20,978 nucleotides of DNA from a virus. The stretch's first letter is position 1. Each line of letters starts with the position of its first letter. The stretch covers positions 1-20,978 of the IMG/VR virus record IMGVR_UViG_3300044715_001341; one strand, given 5' to 3'. Shown one piece after another: positions 1,138 through 12,042 of this stretch. The notes beneath the pieces were generated by a model, which was not told where the DNA came from, did not search any database, and saw only the letters and a list, made by a program, of their open reading frames with translations. Made by a program: the position numbers and the translations under genes.

Positions 1138-1166
1138 ATTATACAGCCATTTGTTGTATTTGTCAA
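1138..1166 (-). promoter_or_regulatory. Consensus sigma-70 promoter for the partial unknown gene
   Basis: On the minus strand a perfect TTGACA (1166-1161) and a perfect TATAAT (1143-1138) are separated by exactly 17 bases. The predicted start of transcription is near 1131, leaving a leader of about 26 bases that carries an AAGGAAG ribosome site. The -35 box begins 2 bases past the stop codon of the upstream 88-aa gene, so the promoter fills the whole intergenic gap. Confidence 0.85.
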
Positions 1167-1168
1167 GC

Positions 1169-1435
1169 TCATCCTGCCAGTAGAACTGCAAACGTTATCA
1201 TACGTTCATAGTTTGCTATCTCTTCATTGACTTTGTCAACTAATTCTTTATGTAGTCTAGTCTGCTTTTGGTGTCTGCGACAATTGATTTCTTCTTTACT
1301 TATATCTTTAACCATTAGTCCAATATTATGACTGATGTTCCACATTTCGTGCGTGTACTTTTTCATTTTATGTAATGGCGCTTCTAATGCAGTCTGCACT
1401 TCTGGCCAATCTAAACTTGATTGTATTTCATTCAT
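1169..1435 (-). CDS. Small unknown early protein, 88 aa, likely leaderless
   Basis: Small charged protein with no recognised family. It contains helix-compatible stretches, for example around residues 45-75 (Lys/Glu/Arg/His-rich), and one Cys in a CRRHQK segment near residue 52; the last 12 residues are hydrophobic. No signal peptide. The ATG at 1435 lies 6 bases past the -10 box of a consensus promoter, so the predicted first transcribed base is the A of the start codon, and no Shine-Dalgarno sequence exists for this start. The next in-frame Met (residue 24) also lacks a ribosome site. The gene sits just upstream of, and on the same strand as, the partial gene, and is divergent from gp14. 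Position and promoter type suggest a host-takeover or other early accessory gene; that is inference. Confidence 0.7.
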   Translation of the reverse strand: MNEIQSSLDWPEVQTALEAPLHKMKKYTHEMWNISHNIGLMVKDISKEEINCRRHQKQTRLHKELVDKVNEEIANYERMITFAVLLAG

Positions 1436-1441
1436 AAAGCA

Positions 1442-1470
1442 AGTATAGCATCTATTTGCAGCTATGTCAA
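1442..1470 (-). promoter_or_regulatory. Near-perfect sigma-70 promoter giving a leaderless start
   Basis: Minus strand TTGACA (1470-1465), 17-base spacer, TATACT (1447-1442, one mismatch to TATAAT). Six bases separate the -10 box from the ATG at 1435, so the usual +1 position coincides with the start codon. It lies back to back with the late promoter of gp14, only 5 bases from it. Confidence 0.82.
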
Positions 1471-1475
1471 TCTAA

Positions 1476-1483
1476 GCTAAATA
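1476..1483 (+). promoter_or_regulatory. T4-type late promoter for gp14-gp15
   Basis: GCTAAATA resembles the T4 late octamer TATAAATA (two mismatches at the first two positions, the pattern shared with other sites in this window). Predicted start is near 1489. It is followed by an AGGA ribosome site at 1494-1497 and the ATG at 1505. Confidence 0.6.
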
Positions 1484-1504: not shown

Positions 1505-3046
1505 ATGCCAAGATTAAGCATGTACCGCCCAAATAAGGGAAATGATTATAAATTCTTCGACCGCAGAATCAGTGAGATGTTTACTGTTGGCGGCGTTGAT
1601 ATTAATATTCACAAGTATCTTGGTCCAATCGAACAAGGCACCAGCATTACTACTTCGGCAGCGCAGGGCACGCCTGGCACTGAATTGGTATTTGCTAATA
1701 CATCGGCTGTAACCCGTGGTATGTTTGTTGCTGGTACTAATATTCCGGCTGGTACTACTGTTATTGCAAAAACAAGTACGACTATTACCCTATCAGCAAG
1801 CACTACAGCTATTGTTGGATCCGGTGCGACGATTGCTGTCTATTCCGATGCAACACAGCCAAGTTATGCTAATGAAAGTGTGAAAAATATACAAGACCTA
1901 TTGTTTTTAGAAAATAGAGATCGTAAGTACGACACTAGTGTTTATACTATGCGCAGTGTTTATCGTATGAATGACAATGATTTTGATCTAAGTCAATTTG
2001 GTTTGTTCTTAACTGGCGATACTATGTTTATGGTGTTCCACTTAAATGATATGGTTGAAACACTAGGTCGTAAGATTATGGTAGGCGATGTAATGGAACT
2101 ACCGCATCTTAAAGACTTTTATCCGTTAGACGATGATTTGCCCAGTGCGCTAAAACGTTATTACGTTGTACAAGATGCTACACGTGCAGCAGAAGGATTT
2201 AGTCAAACATGGTATCCGCATTTATGGCGTGTTAAAGTTGCTCCGCTAGTCGATAGTCAAGAATACAAAGACATTACACAAAACATCAGCAGTGGTGATG
2301 ATAACAATACACCAATCGGTGACTTGTTAAGTACTTACGACAAGTACACTGCGGTTAACGATGCTATTATCGCTCGAGCAGAATCTGAAGTGCCACTAAG
2401 TGGATATGATACTAGTACCATTTATACACTACCGGTTGGTACCGATAATTTACCAAATGTAGCTATTACCTCTACTGCTAAAGTACAAGGATACCTAACA
2501 AGCACAGGCTTGCCGCCAAACGGATTGGCGGTTAGTGCAGGTATTGCGTTTCCATCCACTCCGGCAGTCGGCGATTACTATCTACGCTTAGATTATGTAC
2601 CTAATAGACTATTCCGTTATGATTCAAAACGTTGGATTAAAATTGAGGATTCTGTGCGCACTAACTTAACACAGGGATTAGATAATACAACTCAACGCAG
2701 TGGCTTTGTTAACAACATAAATGCTACATATAGTGGCGGACTTGGTTGGGACGCAATTCGTGTTGCTACCTCTTACACTCCGGCGGGCAACGCAAAAACA
2801 TTATCATTTAATATGTCAACTAAGACAGTTGTAACGAAAATTGCGTATGTTAGCACACACGGCGTAAAAACTACCTTAAATGGCACACATATTACTAATA
2901 CTGTGGCAAATACTGCTGGAAATGTGTCATTTACCATCACAAATACCTTAGCAACTAACGATATGCTAGAATATACGGTTTACAGTAAAGTAACACCGGA
3001 ACGTCAGGGTTTATCTGACATACTTTCACCTTTGGCGGATAACTAA
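1505..3046 (+). CDS. 14: gp14-like neck protein with inserted beta domain and C-terminal extension
   Basis: Likely the T4 gp14-type head-completion/neck protein that joins the DNA-filled head to the tail. T4 gp14 is about 256 aa; this one is 513 aa. The gp14-like pattern is split. Residues 20-41 (ISEMFTVGGVDINIHKYLG) match the T4 segment leading to its VECYYVPREY. Residues 128-200 match the following part, including DLLFLENRDRKYD, LSQFGLF and GRKIMVGDVMELP (T4: EGDLIYFP). Between them, residues 43-115 form a Thr/Ser/Gly-rich beta insertion (GMFVAGTNIPAGTTV). The part after about residue 260 is an additional C-terminal region with a GDYYLRLDYVPNRLFRYD phrase. The start has an AGGA site 7 bases upstream. 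The stop overlaps the next start as TAATG. The adjacent gp15-like gene preserves the T4 14-15 order. The assignment is from remembered family sequence and synteny, not a search. Confidence 0.72.
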   Translation: MPRLSMYRPNKGNDYKFFDRRISEMFTVGGVDINIHKYLGPIEQGTSITTSAAQGTPGTELVFANTSAVTRGMFVAGTNIPAGTTVIAKTSTTITLSASTTAIVGSGATIAVYSDATQPSYANESVKNIQDLLFLENRDRKYDTSVYTMRSVYRMNDNDFDLSQFGLFLTGDTMFMVFHLNDMVETLGRKIMVGDVMELPHLKDFYPLDDDLPSALKRYYVVQDATRAAEGFSQTWYPHLWRVKVAPLVDSQEYKDITQNISSGDDNNTPIGDLLSTYDKYTAVNDAIIARAESEVPLSGYDTSTIYTLPVGTDNLPNVAITSTAKVQGYLTSTGLPPNGLAVSAGIAFPSTPAVGDYYLRLDYVPNRLFRYDSKRWIKIEDSVRTNLTQGLDNTTQRSGFVNNINATYSGGLGWDAIRVATSYTPAGNAKTLSFNMSTKTVVTKIAYVSTHGVKTTLNGTHITNTVANTAGNVSFTITNTLATNDMLEYTVYSKVTPERQGLSDILSPLADN

Positions 3047-4461
3047 TGAGCAGTCAATATTTTTATGATGGTCAAATTGAACGGTTTGTAGTACAATTCA
3101 TTAGAATAATGAGTGGCTACGAAGTTGAATTTGGACAGGATCGCACAGGCAGTAAAACTCTACAACGTGTGCCAATTTATTATGCAGATGGTAGCAAACA
3201 AGTTGCGGCTATTTTAGCAAATAATAGTGAGAACGCTATGCAGACTGTGCCAGCGATGGCTGTGTATATCAGCGGATTAACCTACGACAGAGAACGTGTG
3301 CAAAGTCCAACGTATGTTAATAATATGAGCATACGTCAACGTAAATATGATGCTGATACAGATACCTACGAACAAACACAAGGTAATGCATTTACTATTG
3401 AACGCATAATGCCTGTACCATATACATTAGAATTAAAGTTAGATATATGGACCAGCAACACTAAACAAAAATTACAATTAGTCGAACAGATATTACCATT
3501 GTTTAATCCCGGCTTAGAAATACAAAGTACAGACAATTATATTGACTGGACAAGTTTAAGTGTTATATATTTAGATAGCCCTAATTGGTCAAGTCGCGCG
3601 ATACCTGTGGGCACTGAAAATCCAATTGATGTTGCTACACTTACATTTAAATTGCCAATTTGGATTAGTCCACCTGCTAAAGTTAAAAAACTTGGCGTTA
3701 TTCAAAAAATTATTGCCGGTATACATGATGCTCAAGGTGATTTAAATGCCGCTGCATACACCGAAGCTAATTTAATGGGCACTCGTATGTATTATACTCC
3801 CATGGATTATGGAGTTTTACTATTAAGAAGTGGTAGCAACTCATACACATTGACATTATTAAAAGTAAGCGAAATTGAAGACCCTCGAGAGCCCACATTA
3901 AGTACCCCAACTAAAATTGGTACACGTGATAACTGGCATAATTTAGTTAATGTATATGGCGCATTAGTCGACGGTATCAGTCAAATTAGATTGTTAGCAG
4001 ACGACGGAGAGTCAGAGATTGTAGGCACTGTTACATATCATCCAACAGATGATAGTTTGTTAATTTTTAATGCAGACATTGATACCTATCCAGCTAACAC
4101 GTTAGCAGCAATTGATGCTATTATTGACCCTCGTAAAAATACTGCTGTGGCATTAGCGCAAGGTGCAGTTAATGGCACTCGTTATTTAATATTAAATTCA
4201 ATCGGTAGCAGTGACAATGGCGCTCTTGACGGGCCTAGTGCGTGGCGTGGTTCCAACAATGTAGATTTAATTGCAGGCGCAAATGATATTATCGAATATA
4301 ACGGCACACATTGGGCTGTTGTATTTGACAGTTCGGCTGCAACTGTGTTACAATATGTGTCAAATTTGAATACCGGAACGCAGTATAAATGGAATCTCAA
4401 TCAGTGGGTGAAAAGCTTCGAAGGTGAATATAAGAATGGTCTCTGGACATTAGTCCTTTAG
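3046..4461 (+). CDS. 15: gp15-like proximal tail sheath stabilizer/terminator
   Basis: Matches T4 gp15, which forms the ring capping the contractile sheath and tail tube at the head-proximal end. Residues 5-45 (YFYDGQIERFVVQFIRIMSG and then RVPIYYAD) parallel T4 YFYNSSFRRYATLMGDLFSN and RVPITYAS. Further parallels are VQSPTYVNNM, PVPYTLELKLDIWT, QLVEQILPLFNPGLEI (T4: QIVEQILPYFQPHF), and a final FKLPIWISPPAKV near residue 210 (T4: FEVNGWMYPPV). T4 gp15 is 272 aa; here residues from about 245 to 471 are an added domain. It ends in a beta-rich module with IIEYNGTHWAVVFD and a C-terminal GLWTLVL. Translation is coupled to gp14 by the TAATG overlap, with a GGCGGA sequence as possible ribosome site. 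Late-expressed from the promoter upstream of gp14. Confidence 0.85.
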   Translation: MSSQYFYDGQIERFVVQFIRIMSGYEVEFGQDRTGSKTLQRVPIYYADGSKQVAAILANNSENAMQTVPAMAVYISGLTYDRERVQSPTYVNNMSIRQRKYDADTDTYEQTQGNAFTIERIMPVPYTLELKLDIWTSNTKQKLQLVEQILPLFNPGLEIQSTDNYIDWTSLSVIYLDSPNWSSRAIPVGTENPIDVATLTFKLPIWISPPAKVKKLGVIQKIIAGIHDAQGDLNAAAYTEANLMGTRMYYTPMDYGVLLLRSGSNSYTLTLLKVSEIEDPREPTLSTPTKIGTRDNWHNLVNVYGALVDGISQIRLLADDGESEIVGTVTYHPTDDSLLIFNADIDTYPANTLAAIDAIIDPRKNTAVALAQGAVNGTRYLILNSIGSSDNGALDGPSAWRGSNNVDLIAGANDIIEYNGTHWAVVFDSSAATVLQYVSNLNTGTQYKWNLNQWVKSFEGEYKNGLWTLVL

Positions 4462-4490
4462 TTGACATTTATCAGTTAGTGTAGTATAAT
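4462..4490 (+). promoter_or_regulatory. Perfect consensus sigma-70 promoter for NUDIX gene
   Basis: TTGACA (4462-4467), exactly 17 bases, TATAAT (4485-4490), all twelve consensus bases present. The -35 box starts at the base directly after the gp15 stop codon. The ATG at 4498 is 7 bases past the -10 box, so the predicted transcript has zero to one leader base. Confidence 0.9.
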
Positions 4491-4497
4491 AGTTAAT

Positions 4498-4950
4498 ATG
4501 TTAACTAAAATAAAAGAATTAATATCAAATAAGTCTATAGAAGGAGTAGGTACGTTTATCTACTGTGTGACTACACATCGATATCTTTTTCTATTACGTA
4601 ATTCAAGCAAGTATTCTGGTACATGGGGATTAGCCGGCGGTAAGATTGATAGTGGCGAACAGTTACTCGAATCGTTGCATCGCGAACTTACTGAAGAATT
4701 AGGTATAGATTTTTCCTCTGCTAGAGTAATACCTATTGAAAAATTCACCAGTGACAAAAACAATTTTTCCTATCATACATTTTTATTACCTGTCAATGAA
4801 GAATTTGTGCCTGAGTTAAATTACGAGCATAGAGGTTATTGTTGGGTAGAACTAGGGGATTACCCCAAACCCCTACATCCCGGAGTTTGGCGCACTGTTA
4901 ACTTTAAAGAAGTTGTTGCTAAGATTAAAACGTTAGAATCTGTATTATAG
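4498..4950 (+). CDS. NUDIX hydrolase, leaderless
   Basis: A 150-aa NUDIX-fold pyrophosphohydrolase, an enzyme class that hydrolyses nucleoside diphosphates linked to another moiety. The complete NUDIX box (G-x5-E-x7-REUxEExGU) lies at residues 48-70: G48, E54, then RELTEELGI at 62-70, with the Mg-binding glutamates 63, 66 and 67 all present. The preceding GTWGLAGG is typical of MutT-like members, and length is normal for the family, so the enzyme should be active; the substrate cannot be told. It has its own perfect promoter and no Shine-Dalgarno sequence; the ATG sits at the predicted +1. It may also be reached by read-through from gp15. Its stop codon overlaps the end of the convergent 245-aa gene by 6 bases. 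The promoter implies early expression, unlike the late genes on both sides, suggesting an inserted accessory cassette. Confidence 0.93.
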   Translation: MLTKIKELISNKSIEGVGTFIYCVTTHRYLFLLRNSSKYSGTWGLAGGKIDSGEQLLESLHRELTEELGIDFSSARVIPIEKFTSDKNNFSYHTFLLPVNEEFVPELNYEHRGYCWVELGDYPKPLHPGVWRTVNFKEVVAKIKTLESVL

Positions 4951-5682
4951 ATTTGCTTCTAAAACAAATGCTCTAAATGATATTTGTCTAAAGTTTACAC
5001 ATGTTTTCCATTCGTCTGGCGTTGTTACTCTTCCTGCATTAGTTACCCATACAAAATCAACATCATCATATGTGTTAAATATTAATGCACGCTCTGCAAT
5101 CCATTTTTGAGATGAACTATCACTTCTAGTTTCTCCGTATCCAGCAGTATCTGCATAAACATTATAATTATAGCCCGGAGTATCTTGATTATCAAATCCT
5201 AATAGGAATATTTTTTTATGTCCATCAAATGCCGCAATATATGCTGCAGTAGTACCTGCATCAGTATACGGATCTCGTGGTATTAAATAGAATTTATTCG
5301 GATATTCAAGTAAGTGAATTGAACTTGTATATACAATATTATCTGTAGGATAATCGCTACTTGCCAGTTCTGCAATAATATCATTGCCGCGTGCTATTAA
5401 AAAGTCCGGAGTATAATCTCTATAAAGTGCATTACATCCATAAGTCTGTAATGTATCTGCTCCTAATAATCCGCCTCTATGCTCAAAAATTGCTCGCATA
5501 TCGAAGTCTAATCTAGACGGACCGTTACCAATAACAACAGCCTGATTAGATATTTGCGTATTAGTGACAGCATTTGGCAAATGTTCTGTTGTATCATGCC
5601 AAACACCATCAGTATAATTACGCTCTACTACAATATCTTCACCGGTATAATCTGTTCTATATAATTTATTAATTTTTAACAT
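4945..5682 (-). CDS. Probable glycosyltransferase-like protein (GT42/DUF115-type fold)
   Basis: A 245-aa protein with a Rossmann-type phrase VVIGNGPS at residues 49-56, close to the AGNGPS motif of GT42 sialyltransferases (Cst-II type) and of DUF115/MAF-type proteins. It continues with YGCNALYRDYTPDFLI (81-96), corresponding to the CN region after the first strand. Then come DAGTTAAYIAAF (141-152) and KIFLLGFDNQ (157-166), matching the SGxxA...LLGFD pattern of those families. No signal peptide or membrane helix. Residues 1-45 look like an added N-terminal piece. The start follows the giant fibre stop by 3 bases, and the AAGGTG ribosome site lies in the end of that gene, so translation is coupled to the fibre. 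A role in decorating the fibre or a host-surface sugar is inference; substrate and activity are unknown. A divergent non-enzymatic structural role is possible. Confidence 0.55.
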   Translation of the reverse strand: MLKINKLYRTDYTGEDIVVERNYTDGVWHDTTEHLPNAVTNTQISNQAVVIGNGPSRLDFDMRAIFEHRGGLLGADTLQTYGCNALYRDYTPDFLIARGNDIIAELASSDYPTDNIVYTSSIHLLEYPNKFYLIPRDPYTDAGTTAAYIAAFDGHKKIFLLGFDNQDTPGYNYNVYADTAGYGETRSDSSSQKWIAERALIFNTYDDVDFVWVTNAGRVTTPDEWKTCVNFRQISFRAFVLEANL

Positions 5683-5685
5683 TAA

Positions 5686-8600
5686 TTACACCTTAATATA
5701 TGATACGCTAAGTTTTACTGCATTACCAATTGCTGCACCTGTATAGCTTAATTCAACGTTTGCACCATTTACTGCTACAGATACAGTGCCCAATGCAGCG
5801 ACTCCTGTACTTATTGTTGCATATTGTGTACGTGTTGCTGTTGTACCATTATGTATTACCAACACTTCTGTAGTTTCATACTCGCCTGTACCGCTGTTTG
5901 ATATATTTACAATGTATTTTGCAGAGCGGTAAGTTGCTTTAGCAAAACTATCAATAACCACGGCACTTGTGCCTACTGTAACTGCTGTTTGGTCGTATGC
6001 AATCTTAGTACCATTTGTGTATGTTACTGAACTTGCATTAATTACAACATTGTCACTAGATGCATCACCAATATTAATTGTTCCGTTCGAATCACCGTTA
6101 ACAGTTAAGTTACCAACAATTGTTACATCATGGTTGAATGTTGCATTACCGTTAACATCTATGAAGAATCGTTTAGTTGTTGAAGATGAACCTGTCCATA
6201 TTTGCGCTTCGGTATTATTTGTAATAAATTGGGTCAACCCGTTAGCACTTGTAAGCGCAGCCACTGTAGTTGTGGTTGCTAACAGACGTACATCAATTAT
6301 ATCACCCAATGCCGGAGCTTCTGTAAATGTTAATACATCTGCACTAATATCATACGCAAGTGCTGGCATTTGTAACACACCATTGATACTAACAATAGCA
6401 GCCGCTGTTGTCGATGAGGCCTGTACAGTAAACGTAACGTTTGTTCCATCAACATTACCATTTGGGTTGCCCGATGCTGCTGAAAACTGTCTATCACTAA
6501 TTACAGTAAATATAGAACCTGCAGTTTGCCATTGACTGCCATCATAGAACTCCATATTATTAATGGTACTATTAAATCGCATCATACCGCCAACATCAAC
6601 ATTACCACTGTTACTCGGACGTTGCGCTGTTGACCCAACTGGTAGCAACATTGTATCAGTTGCATCAATTTTTAATGTTACACCACCTTGTACAGTTGTA
6701 TTACCACCACTACCTTGATAATGCCCACCACCTATAATAACTGAATCTGTATTACTATTTGCGTAAATTAATGCAGTTGAGTTTGCACCTTTAACTAAGA
6801 AGTTTTCTGCGCTTTGTGTATTATTAATTGTAGCGCCGTTGGCTACATATATATTTGTAGCAAACCCTGCGCCGCCTGAAACTTGCAGTGCACCAGTTGT
6901 TGTTGATGTTGCTGCTGTAGTTGCCGAAATAGTTGCATTGCCTACTATGTTAGTTGTTGCATTGCGGATATTTGTTGTACCAGTAGTAGCACCTAAGTTG
7001 AATGTAGTTGCAGAACCACCAACATTTAATGTTGTTACGTTTACGTTTGCAATATCAAGTGTTGTTTGTCCACTGTAAATTGTAGTTGCGTTTGGTAGGT
7101 ACACGTTTGCATTACGTATATTAAATGTACCTGTAGTTGCACCTGTTACTACAGAAGTAGCAGCACCTGCAAAGTTCATTGTAGTTGCTACTGAATTGTA
7201 CAATGCTTGCGTTGCTTGTTGACCAACTAATGTTGGGTTGTTGATAGTAATAGTACCACTACCAGCACCAATATTTGCTGTGGTTGCTGATGTAAATGCA
7301 CTTACTGTTGTTGCGTTTTGCGTTAACAAGCTAACTGTTGTTTGCGCACCATCAATAGTTGTTGCATTTGGTACCCATACGTTTGCATTATTAGCAGTAA
7401 GTATACCAGTTGCAGCACCTATGTTAAGTGCAGTAGCAGCACCTGCAAAGTTCATTGTAGTTGCTACAGTATTATATAATGCTTGCGTTGCTTGTTGTCC
7501 AACTAATGTTGGGTTGTTGATAGTAATAGTACCACTACCAGCACCAATATTTGCCGTAGTTGCTGATGTAAATGCACTTACAGTTGTTGCGTTTTGTGTT
7601 AATAGTGAAACTGTTGTTTGCGCACCATCAATAGTTGTTGCATTTGGTACCCATACGTTTGCATTATTAGCAGTAAGTGTACCAGTTGCAGCACCAATAT
7701 TAAGTGCAGTAGCAGCACCAAATGCATTTACTGTTGTAGCATTTACATTTAATAATGCAACAGTAGTTTGTGCACCATCAATAGTTGTTGCATTTGGTAC
7801 CCATACGTTTGCATTATTAGCAGTAAGTGTACCAGTTGCAGCACCAATATTAAGTGCAGTAGCAGCACCGCCTAAGTTTAATGTTGTTGCAGTTGTGTTA
7901 TATAAATCTTGTGATGCTTGCGTACCAACTACAGTTGGATTGCCAATAGTAATTGTACCACTGTTTGCACCAATTGCAAGTGCAGTTGCTGCGCCACCTA
8001 AGTTTAATGTTGTTGCAGTTGTATTATATAATGCTTGCGTTGCTTGAGTACCAACTACAGTTGGGTTATTAATAGTTAATGTACCTGTTGTAGCACCAAA
8101 CTCTAAATCAGTTGCAGCTTTAAATGCATCAACAGTAGTTGCATTTGTGTTGAATACAGTAGCAGTAGCACTTGTAGTAGTTATATCACCACCATTAACA
8201 GCTAAATCACCAGTTAAAGTAACATCACCAGTAATACCTAATGTTCCCCCAACAGTTGCATTACCAATAATGTTAGTAGTTGCATTGCGGATATTTGCTA
8301 CACCAGTAGTTGCACCTAATATCATTGTAGATGCAGCACCAAATGCGTTTACAGTAGTTGCAGTTGTATTGTAAACATTTTGTGTTGTTTGTGTACCAAC
8401 TAATGTTGGGTTACCAATAGTAATTGTACCACTATTAGCACCAACTGCGACAGTAGTTGCTCCACCGGCTAAGTTTAATGTAGTTGCTGTTGCATTTACT
8501 AAGTTAAATGTACCTGCAGATGTAGTTAAATCACCACCATTAACTGCTAAGTCATCTGTTAAAGTTGCTGCACCAGTTACCGCTAATGTTCCACCAACTG

Positions 8601-11600
8601 TTGCATTACCAATAATGTTAGTGGTTGCATTTCGAATGTTTGCTGCACCGGTTGTTGCACCAACAATTAATGTTGCCGCTGCACCAAATGCGTTTACCGT
8701 GGTTGCAGTTGTATTGAATACATCTTGTGCTGTTTGAGTACCGACTACAGTTGGGTTATTAATAGTTAATGTACCACTTGTTGCACCAAATTCTAAGTCA
8801 GTTGCAGCTTTAAATGCATCTACTGTAATTGCATTTGCATTTAATAGATTAAATGTACTTGCACTTGTAGTTAAATCACCACCGTTAACAGCTAAGTTAG
8901 CAGTTAATGTAGTATCACCAGTTACACCAAGTGTTGTACTAAATTGTGCAGATGTACCGATTAAATGTTTATTTAAATTCCAACTAGTTGTTGCGTGTGT
9001 GTAAAGTATTGTTGCACCAGCACCATCAACTGTTAGTCCAGCGCCGTTTGCCGCTGCAGAATCTACAGCACCTTTAGCTACTGTAATATTTAAATCTTCA
9101 ACATCTAATGTCGCTGTATTAAGAGTTGTTACATTACCGTTAACTGTTAAATCACCAGTAACTACAACATTACCACCAACATTTAAGTTTTTAGCAACAC
9201 CAACGCCGCCTAATAATACCAATGCTCCAGATGTAGTATTTGTACTTTCTGTTGTTGCACTAATATTTAAATTACCAGTTGTTATTAAGTTATTTTGTAC
9301 AGTAGTATTGCCTGTTGATGCGCCAACGTTAAGTGCAGTAGCAGCACCAAATGCGTTTACTGTTGTTGCTACTGTATTATAAACAGCTTGCGTTGTTTGT
9401 GTACCAACTAAAGTTGGGTTGTTAATTGTTATTGTACCACTTGTAGCACCTACATCAATTGCAGTTGCTGCACCAGCAAAATTAACTGTTGTAGCGGTTG
9501 CATCAATTAAATTAAATGTGCCAGCAGATGTAGTTAAATCACCACCGTTAACTGCTAAATCACCAGCTAATGTAACATCACCAGTTAAACCAAGAGTTCC
9601 GCCAACTGTTGCATTACCAATAATGTTAGTAGTTGCATTGCGGATATTTGCTACACCAGTAGTTGCACCTAATATCATTGTAGATGCAGCACCAAATGCG
9701 TTTACTGTAGTTGCTACAGTATCGTAAACATTTTGCGTTGTTTGTGTACCAACTAATGTTGGGTTGTTAATTGTTATTGTACCACTCGTAGCACCCACAT
9801 CAATTGCAGTTGCTGCACCAGCAAAATTAACTGTTGTGGCATTTGCATCTATTAAATTAAATGTGCCAGCAGATGTAGTTAAATCACCACCGTTAACTGC
9901 TAAATCATCTGTTAATGTTGCTACTCCAGTTACAGCTAATGTACCACCAACTGTAGCATTTCCGATAACATTAGTAGTTGCGTTGCGGATATTTGCTACA
10001 CCAGTAGTTGCACCAACTATAAGTGTTGTTGCAGCGCCAAATGCGTTTACAGTTGTGGCAGTTGTATTATATAAGTCTTGTGTTGTTTGTGTACCCACTA
10101 CTGTTGGGTTATTAATTGTTAATGTACCACTAGTAGCACCAAACTCTAAATCAGTAGCTGCTTTAAACGCATCCACTGTAGTAGCATTTGCGTTAAACAC
10201 TGTAGCAGTTGTAGCTGTAGTGGTAATGTCACCGCCATTTACTGATAGGTCACCTGTTAGTGTAATATTAGCTAATGTTAAATCTAAGCTATATGTAACT
10301 TCTTTAGTAGTGCTGTTATATTGTAGTGTGCCAACGTTACCTGTGGCATTTCTAATTGGAGCCACATAGAAACTGTCTGTCTGTGCTGATACTCCGTTAA
10401 CGTTAGCGCCAGTGGCATTAAGAATAATAGTATTTGCGGCTTGAGATACTGCGCCTGCACCTTTACCTAATGCTAACGAGTTGTCTCCTTGACTGCTGTA
10501 TCCTGCAAAATTACCTATTGCGACAGCATTTCCACTTTGATTTACTCCGCCCGCCCAGTCGCCAATAGCCACTGAAAAATCGCCTTGGCTGCTAGCTCCA
10601 GCAAGATGTCCAACTGCTACTGAATAATCACCTTGACTAGTTTGTCCTGCCTGAGGGCCTATTGCTGTTGCTTGGAACCCACTGCTTTCGCCGGCACCAG
10701 ATCCAACAGCAACCGATTCAAATCCTTGGCTATTAGACCCTGCATAATTACCTATAGCTACTGCCCTAGTAGCTTGGCTACCAAAGCCGGCATTTTGACC
10801 GAATGCTATCGCATCATCAGCATTGTCTTTAATTACAGCGCCGTTAGGTAATGTAATCGTTCCGCCGATCGTTGCGTTGCCTAAAATATTAGTAGTCGCA
10901 TTACGGATATTTGCCGCACCAGTAGTTGCACCAACTATAAGTGTTGTTGCAGCACCTGCAAAGTTCATTGTAGTTGCGGCTGTATTATACAAGTTTTGTG
11001 TTGATTGCGTACCAACTAATGTTGGATTATTAATTGTTGCTGTACCTGATGTTGCACCAACATTTAATGTTGTTGCAGCACCTGCAAAGTTCATAGTAGT
11101 TGCGTTTGTGTTGTATAATGCTTGCGTTGCTTGTTGTCCAACTACAGTTGGGTTGTTAATTGTAAATGTACCTGTTCCTGCGCCAACGTTTGCTGTAGTT
11201 GCTGATGTAAATGCACTTACAGTTGTTGCGTTTTGTGTTAGCAATGATACAGTAGTTTGCGCACCGTCGATTGTAGTTGCATTTGGAACCCATACATTTG
11301 CATTATTAGCAGTAAGTATACCAGTTGCAGCACCAATATTAAGTGCAGTAGCAGCACCCGCAAAGTTCATTGTAGTTGCGTTTGTATTATACAATGCTTG
11401 CGTTGCTTGTTGCCCAACTACTGTCGGGTTGTTAATTGTAAATGTACCTGTTCCGGCACCAACGTTTGCTGTTGTAACTGCTCCGCCGAAGTTTAATGTA
11501 GTTACTGTAGAATTTAATAAATCAAACGTTGCAGTGTTCGCAGTTAATGCGCCGCCACCAATTAATAAGTTACCACTTAATGTACCGTACCATGCACTCA

Positions 11601-12042
11601 AATTACCTAGTGTCGACGTAGCAGCTACAGTTAAGTTACCAACTTTTAAGTTAGCATACCCACTGTTGTTAATTGCACCATAACTTGTACCGGTATCTGA
11701 TGTGAATGTAAGTTCAAACTGTTTGTTTGCTTCTTTCCATATAAATGCTGTGGTTGTTTGATCACCGCGATTAATTAACAATCCAATATCGTAGGTGTTA
11801 GTACCACTAAACGCATTGTTTAATACAATTAACGGATCGTTAACGTAAGTGTTAGTAGAAGCTACTGTTAGATATGTACTCGACCCCTGTACTGTCAAGT
11901 TACCAGTAATAGTAACATCACTGGTCATTGTTAGGTTGCTGTTAAATAAACTACCTACGATAGATCCCGGAACAATCTTGGTGTTAGCAAGGATTGTTGA
12001 GTCCGTAATCTGATTATTCTTAATTCTGGTTAAATTTGCCAT
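5686..12042 (-). CDS. Giant repetitive tail-fibre/adhesin protein, 2118 aa, with YadA-like head
   Basis: Largest gene here, built almost entirely of Thr, Ala, Asn, Gly and Val with few charged or aromatic residues and no Cys that I can see. Residues 1-125 form an attachment-type domain (VTITGNLTVQG, then DPLIVLNN and LINRGDQTTTAFIW) that resembles the 193-aa protein upstream. Residues about 125-400 and 560-1790 are beta repeats with a 42-aa unit (NNPTLVGTQ...YNT.ATT..FGAAT...GATTG), plus 50-aa and 115-aa higher-order versions. Residues 411-545 are eight YadA-head-type repeats. A different segment with LTVDGAGATILY lies near 1000. The C-terminus carries two modules shared with neighbouring fibres (RPSN...MRFN...MEFYDG.QW, about 1797-1842; VSINGVLQ...TFTEAP..GD, about 1857-1920) and a beta-rich end. 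No S74 chaperone motif is seen. It probably forms a long trimeric beta fibre for host recognition. GGAG lies 11 bases before the start. Confidence 0.85.
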   Translation of the reverse strand: MANLTRIKNNQITDSTILANTKIVPGSIVGSLFNSNLTMTSDVTITGNLTVQGSSTYLTVASTNTYVNDPLIVLNNAFSGTNTYDIGLLINRGDQTTTAFIWKEANKQFELTFTSDTGTSYGAINNSGYANLKVGNLTVAATSTLGNLSAWYGTLSGNLLIGGGALTANTATFDLLNSTVTTLNFGGAVTTANVGAGTGTFTINNPTVVGQQATQALYNTNATTMNFAGAATALNIGAATGILTANNANVWVPNATTIDGAQTTVSLLTQNATTVSAFTSATTANVGAGTGTFTINNPTVVGQQATQALYNTNATTMNFAGAATTLNVGATSGTATINNPTLVGTQSTQNLYNTAATTMNFAGAATTLIVGATTGAANIRNATTNILGNATIGGTITLPNGAVIKDNADDAIAFGQNAGFGSQATRAVAIGNYAGSNSQGFESVAVGSGAGESSGFQATAIGPQAGQTSQGDYSVAVGHLAGASSQGDFSVAIGDWAGGVNQSGNAVAIGNFAGYSSQGDNSLALGKGAGAVSQAANTIILNATGANVNGVSAQTDSFYVAPIRNATGNVGTLQYNSTTKEVTYSLDLTLANITLTGDLSVNGGDITTTATTATVFNANATTVDAFKAATDLEFGATSGTLTINNPTVVGTQTTQDLYNTTATTVNAFGAATTLIVGATTGVANIRNATTNVIGNATVGGTLAVTGVATLTDDLAVNGGDLTTSAGTFNLIDANATTVNFAGAATAIDVGATSGTITINNPTLVGTQTTQNVYDTVATTVNAFGAASTMILGATTGVANIRNATTNIIGNATVGGTLGLTGDVTLAGDLAVNGGDLTTSAGTFNLIDATATTVNFAGAATAIDVGATSGTITINNPTLVGTQTTQAVYNTVATTVNAFGAATALNVGASTGNTTVQNNLITTGNLNISATTESTNTTSGALVLLGGVGVAKNLNVGGNVVVTGDLTVNGNVTTLNTATLDVEDLNITVAKGAVDSAAANGAGLTVDGAGATILYTHATTSWNLNKHLIGTSAQFSTTLGVTGDTTLTANLAVNGGDLTTSASTFNLLNANAITVDAFKAATDLEFGATSGTLTINNPTVVGTQTAQDVFNTTATTVNAFGAAATLIVGATTGAANIRNATTNIIGNATVGGTLAVTGAATLTDDLAVNGGDLTTSAGTFNLVNATATTLNLAGGATTVAVGANSGTITIGNPTLVGTQTTQNVYNTTATTVNAFGAASTMILGATTGVANIRNATTNIIGNATVGGTLGITGDVTLTGDLAVNGGDITTTSATATVFNTNATTVDAFKAATDLEFGATTGTLTINNPTVVGTQATQALYNTTATTLNLGGAATALAIGANSGTITIGNPTVVGTQASQDLYNTTATTLNLGGAATALNIGAATGTLTANNANVWVPNATTIDGAQTTVALLNVNATTVNAFGAATALNIGAATGTLTANNANVWVPNATTIDGAQTTVSLLTQNATTVSAFTSATTANIGAGSGTITINNPTLVGQQATQALYNTVATTMNFAGAATALNIGAATGILTANNANVWVPNATTIDGAQTTVSLLTQNATTVSAFTSATTANIGAGSGTITINNPTLVGQQATQALYNSVATTMNFAGAATSVVTGATTGTFNIRNANVYLPNATTIYSGQTTLDIANVNVTTLNVGGSATTFNLGATTGTTNIRNATTNIVGNATISATTAATSTTTGALQVSGGAGFATNIYVANGATINNTQSAENFLVKGANSTALIYANSNTDSVIIGGGHYQGSGGNTTVQGGVTLKIDATDTMLLPVGSTAQRPSNSGNVDVGGMMRFNSTINNMEFYDGSQWQTAGSIFTVISDRQFSAASGNPNGNVDGTNVTFTVQASSTTAAAIVSINGVLQMPALAYDISADVLTFTEAPALGDIIDVRLLATTTTVAALTSANGLTQFITNNTEAQIWTGSSSTTKRFFIDVNGNATFNHDVTIVGNLTVNGDSNGTINIGDASSDNVVINASSVTYTNGTKIAYDQTAVTVGTSAVVIDSFAKATYRSAKYIVNISNSGTGEYETTEVLVIHNGTTATRTQYATISTGVAALGTVSVAVNGANVELSYTGAAIGNAVKLSVSYIKV
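7622..7869 (-). repeat. 98-bp exact direct repeat pair, 150-bp period
   Basis: Bases 7622-7719 and 7772-7869 are identical over 98 bp and offset by 150 bp, matching a 50-residue protein unit (NNANVWVPNATTIDGAQTT plus flanks). Diverged copies start near 7347 and 11263. The frame is kept, so gain or loss of units leaves the fibre gene open. Confidence 0.95.
8017..8706 (-). repeat. Tandem pair of 345-bp (115-aa) units, second doublet
   Basis: Two consecutive 345-bp units, 8706-8362 and 8361-8017. Each encodes ATTVNAFGAA..., then NIRNATTNIIGNATVGGTL, LAVNGGD, and a unit ending in NNPT/GNPT..VGTQ.TQ..YNT. The doublet repeats the arrangement of 9370-10059 at a spacing of 1353 bp. Bases 8255-8352 are identical to 9608-9705 (98 bp). 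Confidence 0.9.
9370..10059 (-). repeat. Tandem pair of 345-bp (115-aa) units, first doublet
   Basis: Units at 10059-9715 and 9714-9370, each 115 codons, encode nearly the same protein. The alternating second half (LAVTG.ATLTDDLAVNGGD against LG.TGDVTL.GDLAVNGGD) follows the same order as in the doublet at 8017-8706, so the doublet was probably duplicated as a unit. Confidence 0.9.
10408..10812 (-). repeat. YadA-head-like repeats inside the giant fibre (residues 411-545)
   Basis: Eight repeats of about 14-16 residues with the pattern [A/S]-[V/I/L]-A-[I/V/F/L]-G-x-x-A-G-x-x-x-Q, for example AVAIGNYAGSNSQG and SVAVGHLAGASSQG. They close with NTIILNATG and are followed by a FYVAPIRNATG stretch. 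This is the AIG...AG signature of the left-handed beta-roll in YadA/Hep_Hag trimeric adhesin heads. The DNA here is much less repetitive than on either side. Confidence 0.8.

Follow-up and report, generated by a model that had tools for sequence, protein, structure and literature searches.

In the DNA analysed here (the window: 20,978 nucleotides, the whole of IMG/VR virus record IMGVR_UViG_3300044715_001341), a predicted NUDIX hydrolase gene starts seven bases after a perfect sigma-70-type promoter, which itself starts directly after the stop codon of a gp15-like tail gene. In relatives the same gene is present at the same place and the promoter is mostly absent. We consider it quite probable that a resident NUDIX gene was recruited by a short promoter-start element to independent, leaderless expression, and that it is one member of a class of phage genes organised in this way.

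The NUDIX gene and its promoter

The capsid and gp15 proteins place the window, which is of freshwater origin, among the jumbo T4-related phages; no DNA similarity to cultured phages was found. The features of the region are:

1476-1483 (+): T4-type late-promoter-like motif GCTAAATA, upstream of the gene at the gp14 position
1505-3046 (+): virion structural protein, gp14 position (PHROG 11591, E 5.7e-90)
3046-4461 (+): gp15-like tail sheath stabiliser (PF16724, E 1e-31; PHROG 11196), stop codon TAG at 4459-4461
4462-4467 (+): -35 box TTGACA, the same hexamer in every promoter-bearing allele
4485-4490 (+): -10 box TATAAT, spacer of 17 from the -35 box
4491-4497 (+): discriminator; transcript start predicted at 4497-4498 from its position relative to the -10 box
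4498-4950 (+): predicted NUDIX hydrolase, 150 aa (PF00293)
4945-5682 (-): convergent gene, 245 aa (PHROG 30607)

The product of the 4498-4950 gene matches PF00293 with 55.6 bits (E 7.5e-15; cut-off 21.1), and its NUDIX box, G48-X5-E54-X7-R62-E63-L-X-E66-E67-X-G69-I, is complete. In an alignment of 37 homologues G48, E54, R62, E63, E66 and E67 are invariant and G69 is nearly so. An AlphaFold2 model (mean pLDDT 87; residues 1-10 of low confidence, about 49) matches NUDIX structures with E about 1e-9. By its GX5EX7REUXEEXGU box and modelled fold the protein is thus predicted to be a NUDIX hydrolase. Box and fold are shared with the MutT/NudG/RppH neighbourhood, to which profiles and folds point generically. 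The NCBIfam equivalogs MutT, NudG, RppH and NudE scored 16-39 bits vs cut-offs of 95-409; none was reached. Attempts to name the substrate from profiles or structure returned generic NUDIX matches. A role in nucleotide clean-up, or a function at RNA 5' ends, is possible.

The first-pass annotation, made from the letters of the window, had described the junction accurately. There are zero bases between the gp15 stop and the -35 box, and the promoter scores 12/12 against TTGACA-17-TATAAT, conforming in sequence to the sigma-70 consensus. Seven bases separate the -10 box from the ATG (4498-4500); with +1 set at the seventh base past the -10 box, the A of this ATG is +2. In sister alleles, which are one base shorter (the discriminator has 6 or 7 bases among alleles), it is exactly +1. 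No Shine-Dalgarno (SD)-like sequence was found upstream of the ATG at 4498. With a start codon at the predicted +1/+2 and no SD, the gene has the layout expected of a leaderless gene. The transcript would begin at the ATG or one base before it, and the mRNA would be translated from a 5'-terminal AUG. The 6-base overlap with the convergent neighbour (4945-4950) was likewise as described.

That the promoter match is due to chance or is a by-product, its distance to the ATG a coincidence, is hardly credible. AT-rich phage genomes are indeed rich in promoter-like sites, and the window has 84 sites scoring at least 9/12 vs 70 expected. However, the number of 12/12 promoters with a 17-base spacer expected per window, both strands counted, is only 0.007 by Markov resampling and 0.012 by composition, and two are observed, at 4462 (+) and 1166 (-), some 170-300 times the expectation. 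The hexamers are moreover unchanged across diverged alleles whose spacers and discriminators differ, an indel among the differences; the L039 allele keeps the -35 hexamer though its spacer differs at several positions. The same promoter-to-start spacing also recurs in unrelated genes, as described below.

The surroundings are of a late type. GCTAAATA is a variant of ATAAATA and resembles the late motif of phage CBB, for which RpoD-like early and ATAAATA late promoters have been reported (PMC5259590). Within the window's clade ATAAATA occurs in 98 of 534 upstream regions vs 24 in shuffles, and CTAAATA in 31 of the same regions vs 6. The motif at 1476-1483 probably drives a late operon of gp14 and gp15 that may extend to NUDIX. 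The annotation's picture of a gene within a late structural region that has a host-type consensus promoter stands. Likeness to the host consensus suggests that this promoter would act early.

The gp15-NUDIX junction in relatives

As in the window, the tail sheath stabiliser gene is immediately followed by a NUDIX gene in Escherichia phage 121Q, Salmonella phage Munch, Klebsiella phage RaK2, Vibrio phage 2.275.O and Pseudomonas phages Paride/PA5oct. Unlike in the window, SD-like sites precede the NUDIX gene of 121Q, Munch and RaK2, and the annotation of Paride has it overlap the tail gene. NUDIX also adjoins gp15 in nearly all IMG/VR relatives examined, down to about 50% gp15 identity. These contigs are metagenomic and partial, and the counts of loci below refer to the matches listed.

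Among the matches listed, NUDIX starts inside gp15 in 95 distinct metagenomic junctions. Counted back 19 bases from the end of the gp15 stop, the codon in the NUDIX frame is ATG in 44 of these, GTG in 28, TTG in 20 and CTG in 3, so that ATG, GTG or TTG stands at exactly -19 in 92/95. The TG of this overlap start is that of a conserved tryptophan codon in gp15. The window differs by one insertion:

4462-4540 (+): lineage-specific element of 79 bases, comprising the promoter, a new start and 13 additional codons at the N-terminus

Where the element is absent, the gp15 stop sits within the NUDIX codons ATA GAA. Six distinct junction haplotypes carry it, including that of the window, on at least 19 IMG/VR contigs; it is 78 bases long in alleles with the shorter discriminator, and L039 also lacks five codons. 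All promoter junctions fall inside one fully supported 18-tip clade, where they are mixed with overlap alleles. With 95 overlap junctions vs 6 promoter junctions confined to this clade, the promoter state is derived. Shuffling gave no support (p 0.12-0.42) to the idea that the 13 new codons arose by duplication and decay of the end of gp15.

These junctions bear on the annotation's proposal of a self-contained accessory cassette (a moron), gene plus promoter, inserted as 4462-4950 between gp15 and the fibre cluster, with presence or absence of exactly that segment in related phages. The gene does have its own promoter, and a segment of about 3900-4950 can move between phages (see below). But NUDIX stands at this position in cultured jumbo phages and in nearly all IMG/VR relatives, and there are relatives that keep it without the promoter; no recognisable terminator-like site was found near 4950, where the gene ends; and the unit that varies is only the 79 bases of 4462-4540. 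For the gene as a whole the cassette is refuted by the relatives with a promoterless gene, and we regard the cassette reading as very improbable.

A weaker form of portability is real. Over about 2551-3900 L294 matches the window at 100% identity, and just after 4951 at 99% or more; between these, over about 3900-4950, it differs by up to 18% and carries a promoterless allele. Since near-identical flanks enclose a different allele, promoter and promoterless alleles are exchanged by recombination. The junction thus displays an evolutionary step, with and without promoter segregating among near-identical phages.

The preferred reading, recruitment of a resident gene, would run as follows. NUDIX would be a resident of the late gp14-gp15 operon with its ancestral start inside the gp15 end, and the overlap allele would be expressed late, coupled to gp15. 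The 79-base element would have removed the overlap and brought the consensus promoter, releasing the gene from its late, coupled mode so that host RNA polymerase could express it independently. In element-bearing alleles a stop lies in the NUDIX frame between gp15 and the new ATG, closing the old overlap start. Strong purifying selection acts on the NUDIX core in these alleles (dN/dS 0.03-0.07; 0.01-0.06 in overlap alleles); with the old start closed, the new start must work.

It could be argued that the promoter is real but minor, adding only some early expression to operon readthrough, and that NUDIX is made mainly from a gp14-gp15-NUDIX late mRNA by re-initiation 36 bases past the gp15 stop. 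The ancestral mode is operonic, NUDIX directly follows gp15 and a late-type motif lies upstream of the operon. Such re-initiation would, however, have to proceed with no SD-like site before the ATG and with the ancestral overlap start closed, and the perfect retention of both promoter boxes also speaks against a minor part. We consider this unlikely, and return to recruitment for leaderless expression as the probable course.

Other forms of the junction were seen. In L329 a stable hairpin (about -14 kcal/mol) follows gp15, and then a TGCTATACT box stands 5 bases before the NUDIX ATG with a weak -35 box; this looks like a possible terminator followed by a putative independent promoter of leaderless type. 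In L304 an insert of ~0.7 kb separates gp15 and NUDIX, and the NUDIX start region is still like a gp15 3' end. L062, L328 and L335 have short spacers. On the other side of NUDIX, DNA identity in the convergent gene (4951-5700) can be as low as ~63% and as high as 100% between phages whose identity elsewhere is ~80-100%. Its sequence divergence suggests that the fibre cluster beside NUDIX is a recombination hotspot. Beyond it, 5686-12042 (-) encodes a 2118-aa fibre-like protein of many degenerate repeats (NATTVNAFGAATALNIGA and similar).

Leaderless-type starts in related phages

The IMG/VR record holds the 20,978-base window only, and contigs of relatives were therefore used for a promoter survey. 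In five contigs of relatives, 718 kb in all, 106 promoters had a 17-base spacer and no more than one mismatch; as start codons we counted ATGs downstream of the -10 box that open an ORF of at least 40 aa. The distances are bimodal: the ATG lies 5-7 bases from the -10 box at 19 promoters, 8-22 bases at 3 and 23-44 bases at 62. An SD is lacking in the near group and present in most of the far group. An ATG at 6-7 bases follows 18/106 promoters vs 6/963 -10 boxes that lack a -35 box (Fisher p 2e-14), where some of the 106 are orthologues on different contigs and so non-independent, the leaderless set comprising about 13 families. A separate IMG/VR pattern sample, in which an ATG was required 4-9 bases after TATAAT, gave 8, 11, 38, 16, 5 and 4 cases at distances 4 to 9, peaking at 6 (38/82).

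Both kinds of start are present in the window itself:

1435-1470 (-): second leaderless-type promoter, TTGACA-17-TATACT, then 6 bases and the ATG (1435)
1169-1435 (-): 88-aa gene with a leaderless-type start, no family match
1138-1166 (-): contrasting 12/12 promoter of the SD-led class, with SD AAGGA and the ATG (1105) 32 bases past the -10 box

Orthologues of the 88-aa gene in L086, L107, L119 and L120 have the same leaderless layout. Besides this gene and NUDIX, the leaderless-type set includes two 79-aa families, thymidylate synthase, primase, DnaJ, a kinase and a desaturase-like protein, names that for the most part we take from recognised sequence motifs; for primase and thymidylate synthase there are matches to annotated phage genes as well. 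Among the matches listed, 38 of 43 distinct primase upstream regions combine a promoter score of at least 9/12 with spacer 17 and a start 6-7 bases on, and no SD was found in the primase regions of this layout. For thymidylate synthase 26 of the 71 upstream regions listed are leaderless-type, most of them, not all, with exactly those spacings.

NUDIX would then be one case of a leaderless-type class (-10 box 6-7 bases before the ATG, no SD) that stands beside an SD-led class. More broadly, and with less assurance than the account of NUDIX itself, we lean towards the view that a large group of T4-related, mostly aquatic phages uses leaderless mRNAs of fixed promoter-to-start spacing for a number of early genes (primase, thymidylate synthase, nucleases, DnaJ, NUDIX and small proteins), as a second translation class, and recruits existing late genes to it by promoter-start insertion. 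The class is not universal in jumbo phages, since none of 68 near-consensus promoters in 121Q and none of 77 in Munch has an ATG at 5-7 bases. In PA5oct the primase (MK797984.1, 145855-145892) has a 12/12 promoter with a GTG 6 bases after TATAAT, and this GTG directly after the -10 box is the annotated start; two further PA5oct candidates disagree with their annotated starts, and PA5oct is hence only a lead. The bimodal start spacing, conserved in primase, provides a set of putative leaderless phage genes that can be tested directly, and it implies that gene finders reliant on SD sites may misplace starts.

Comparison with known leaderless genes

Outside certain hosts, leaderless translation is generally regarded as rare. 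The lambda cI repressor, a single gene, has a leaderless mRNA, and mycobacterial hosts use leaderless genes routinely. Predicted leaderless SigA promoters have been described in Cluster O mycobacteriophages (PMC4351075). These and lambda cI resemble the window in a promoter position that puts the predicted +1 at the start codon, and in having no SD. They differ in that the layout described here is shared by several kinds of gene (replication, nucleotide, accessory) in T4-like phages, which also have a strong SD-led class. No report of a leaderless class in T4-like phages was found in a literature search that was thin on subscription journals, and the text of the CBB paper (PMC5259590) makes no mention of leaderless starts. 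In its two-class transcription CBB, a related phage, is like the window's clade, in which RpoD-like and ATAAATA motifs are enriched too.
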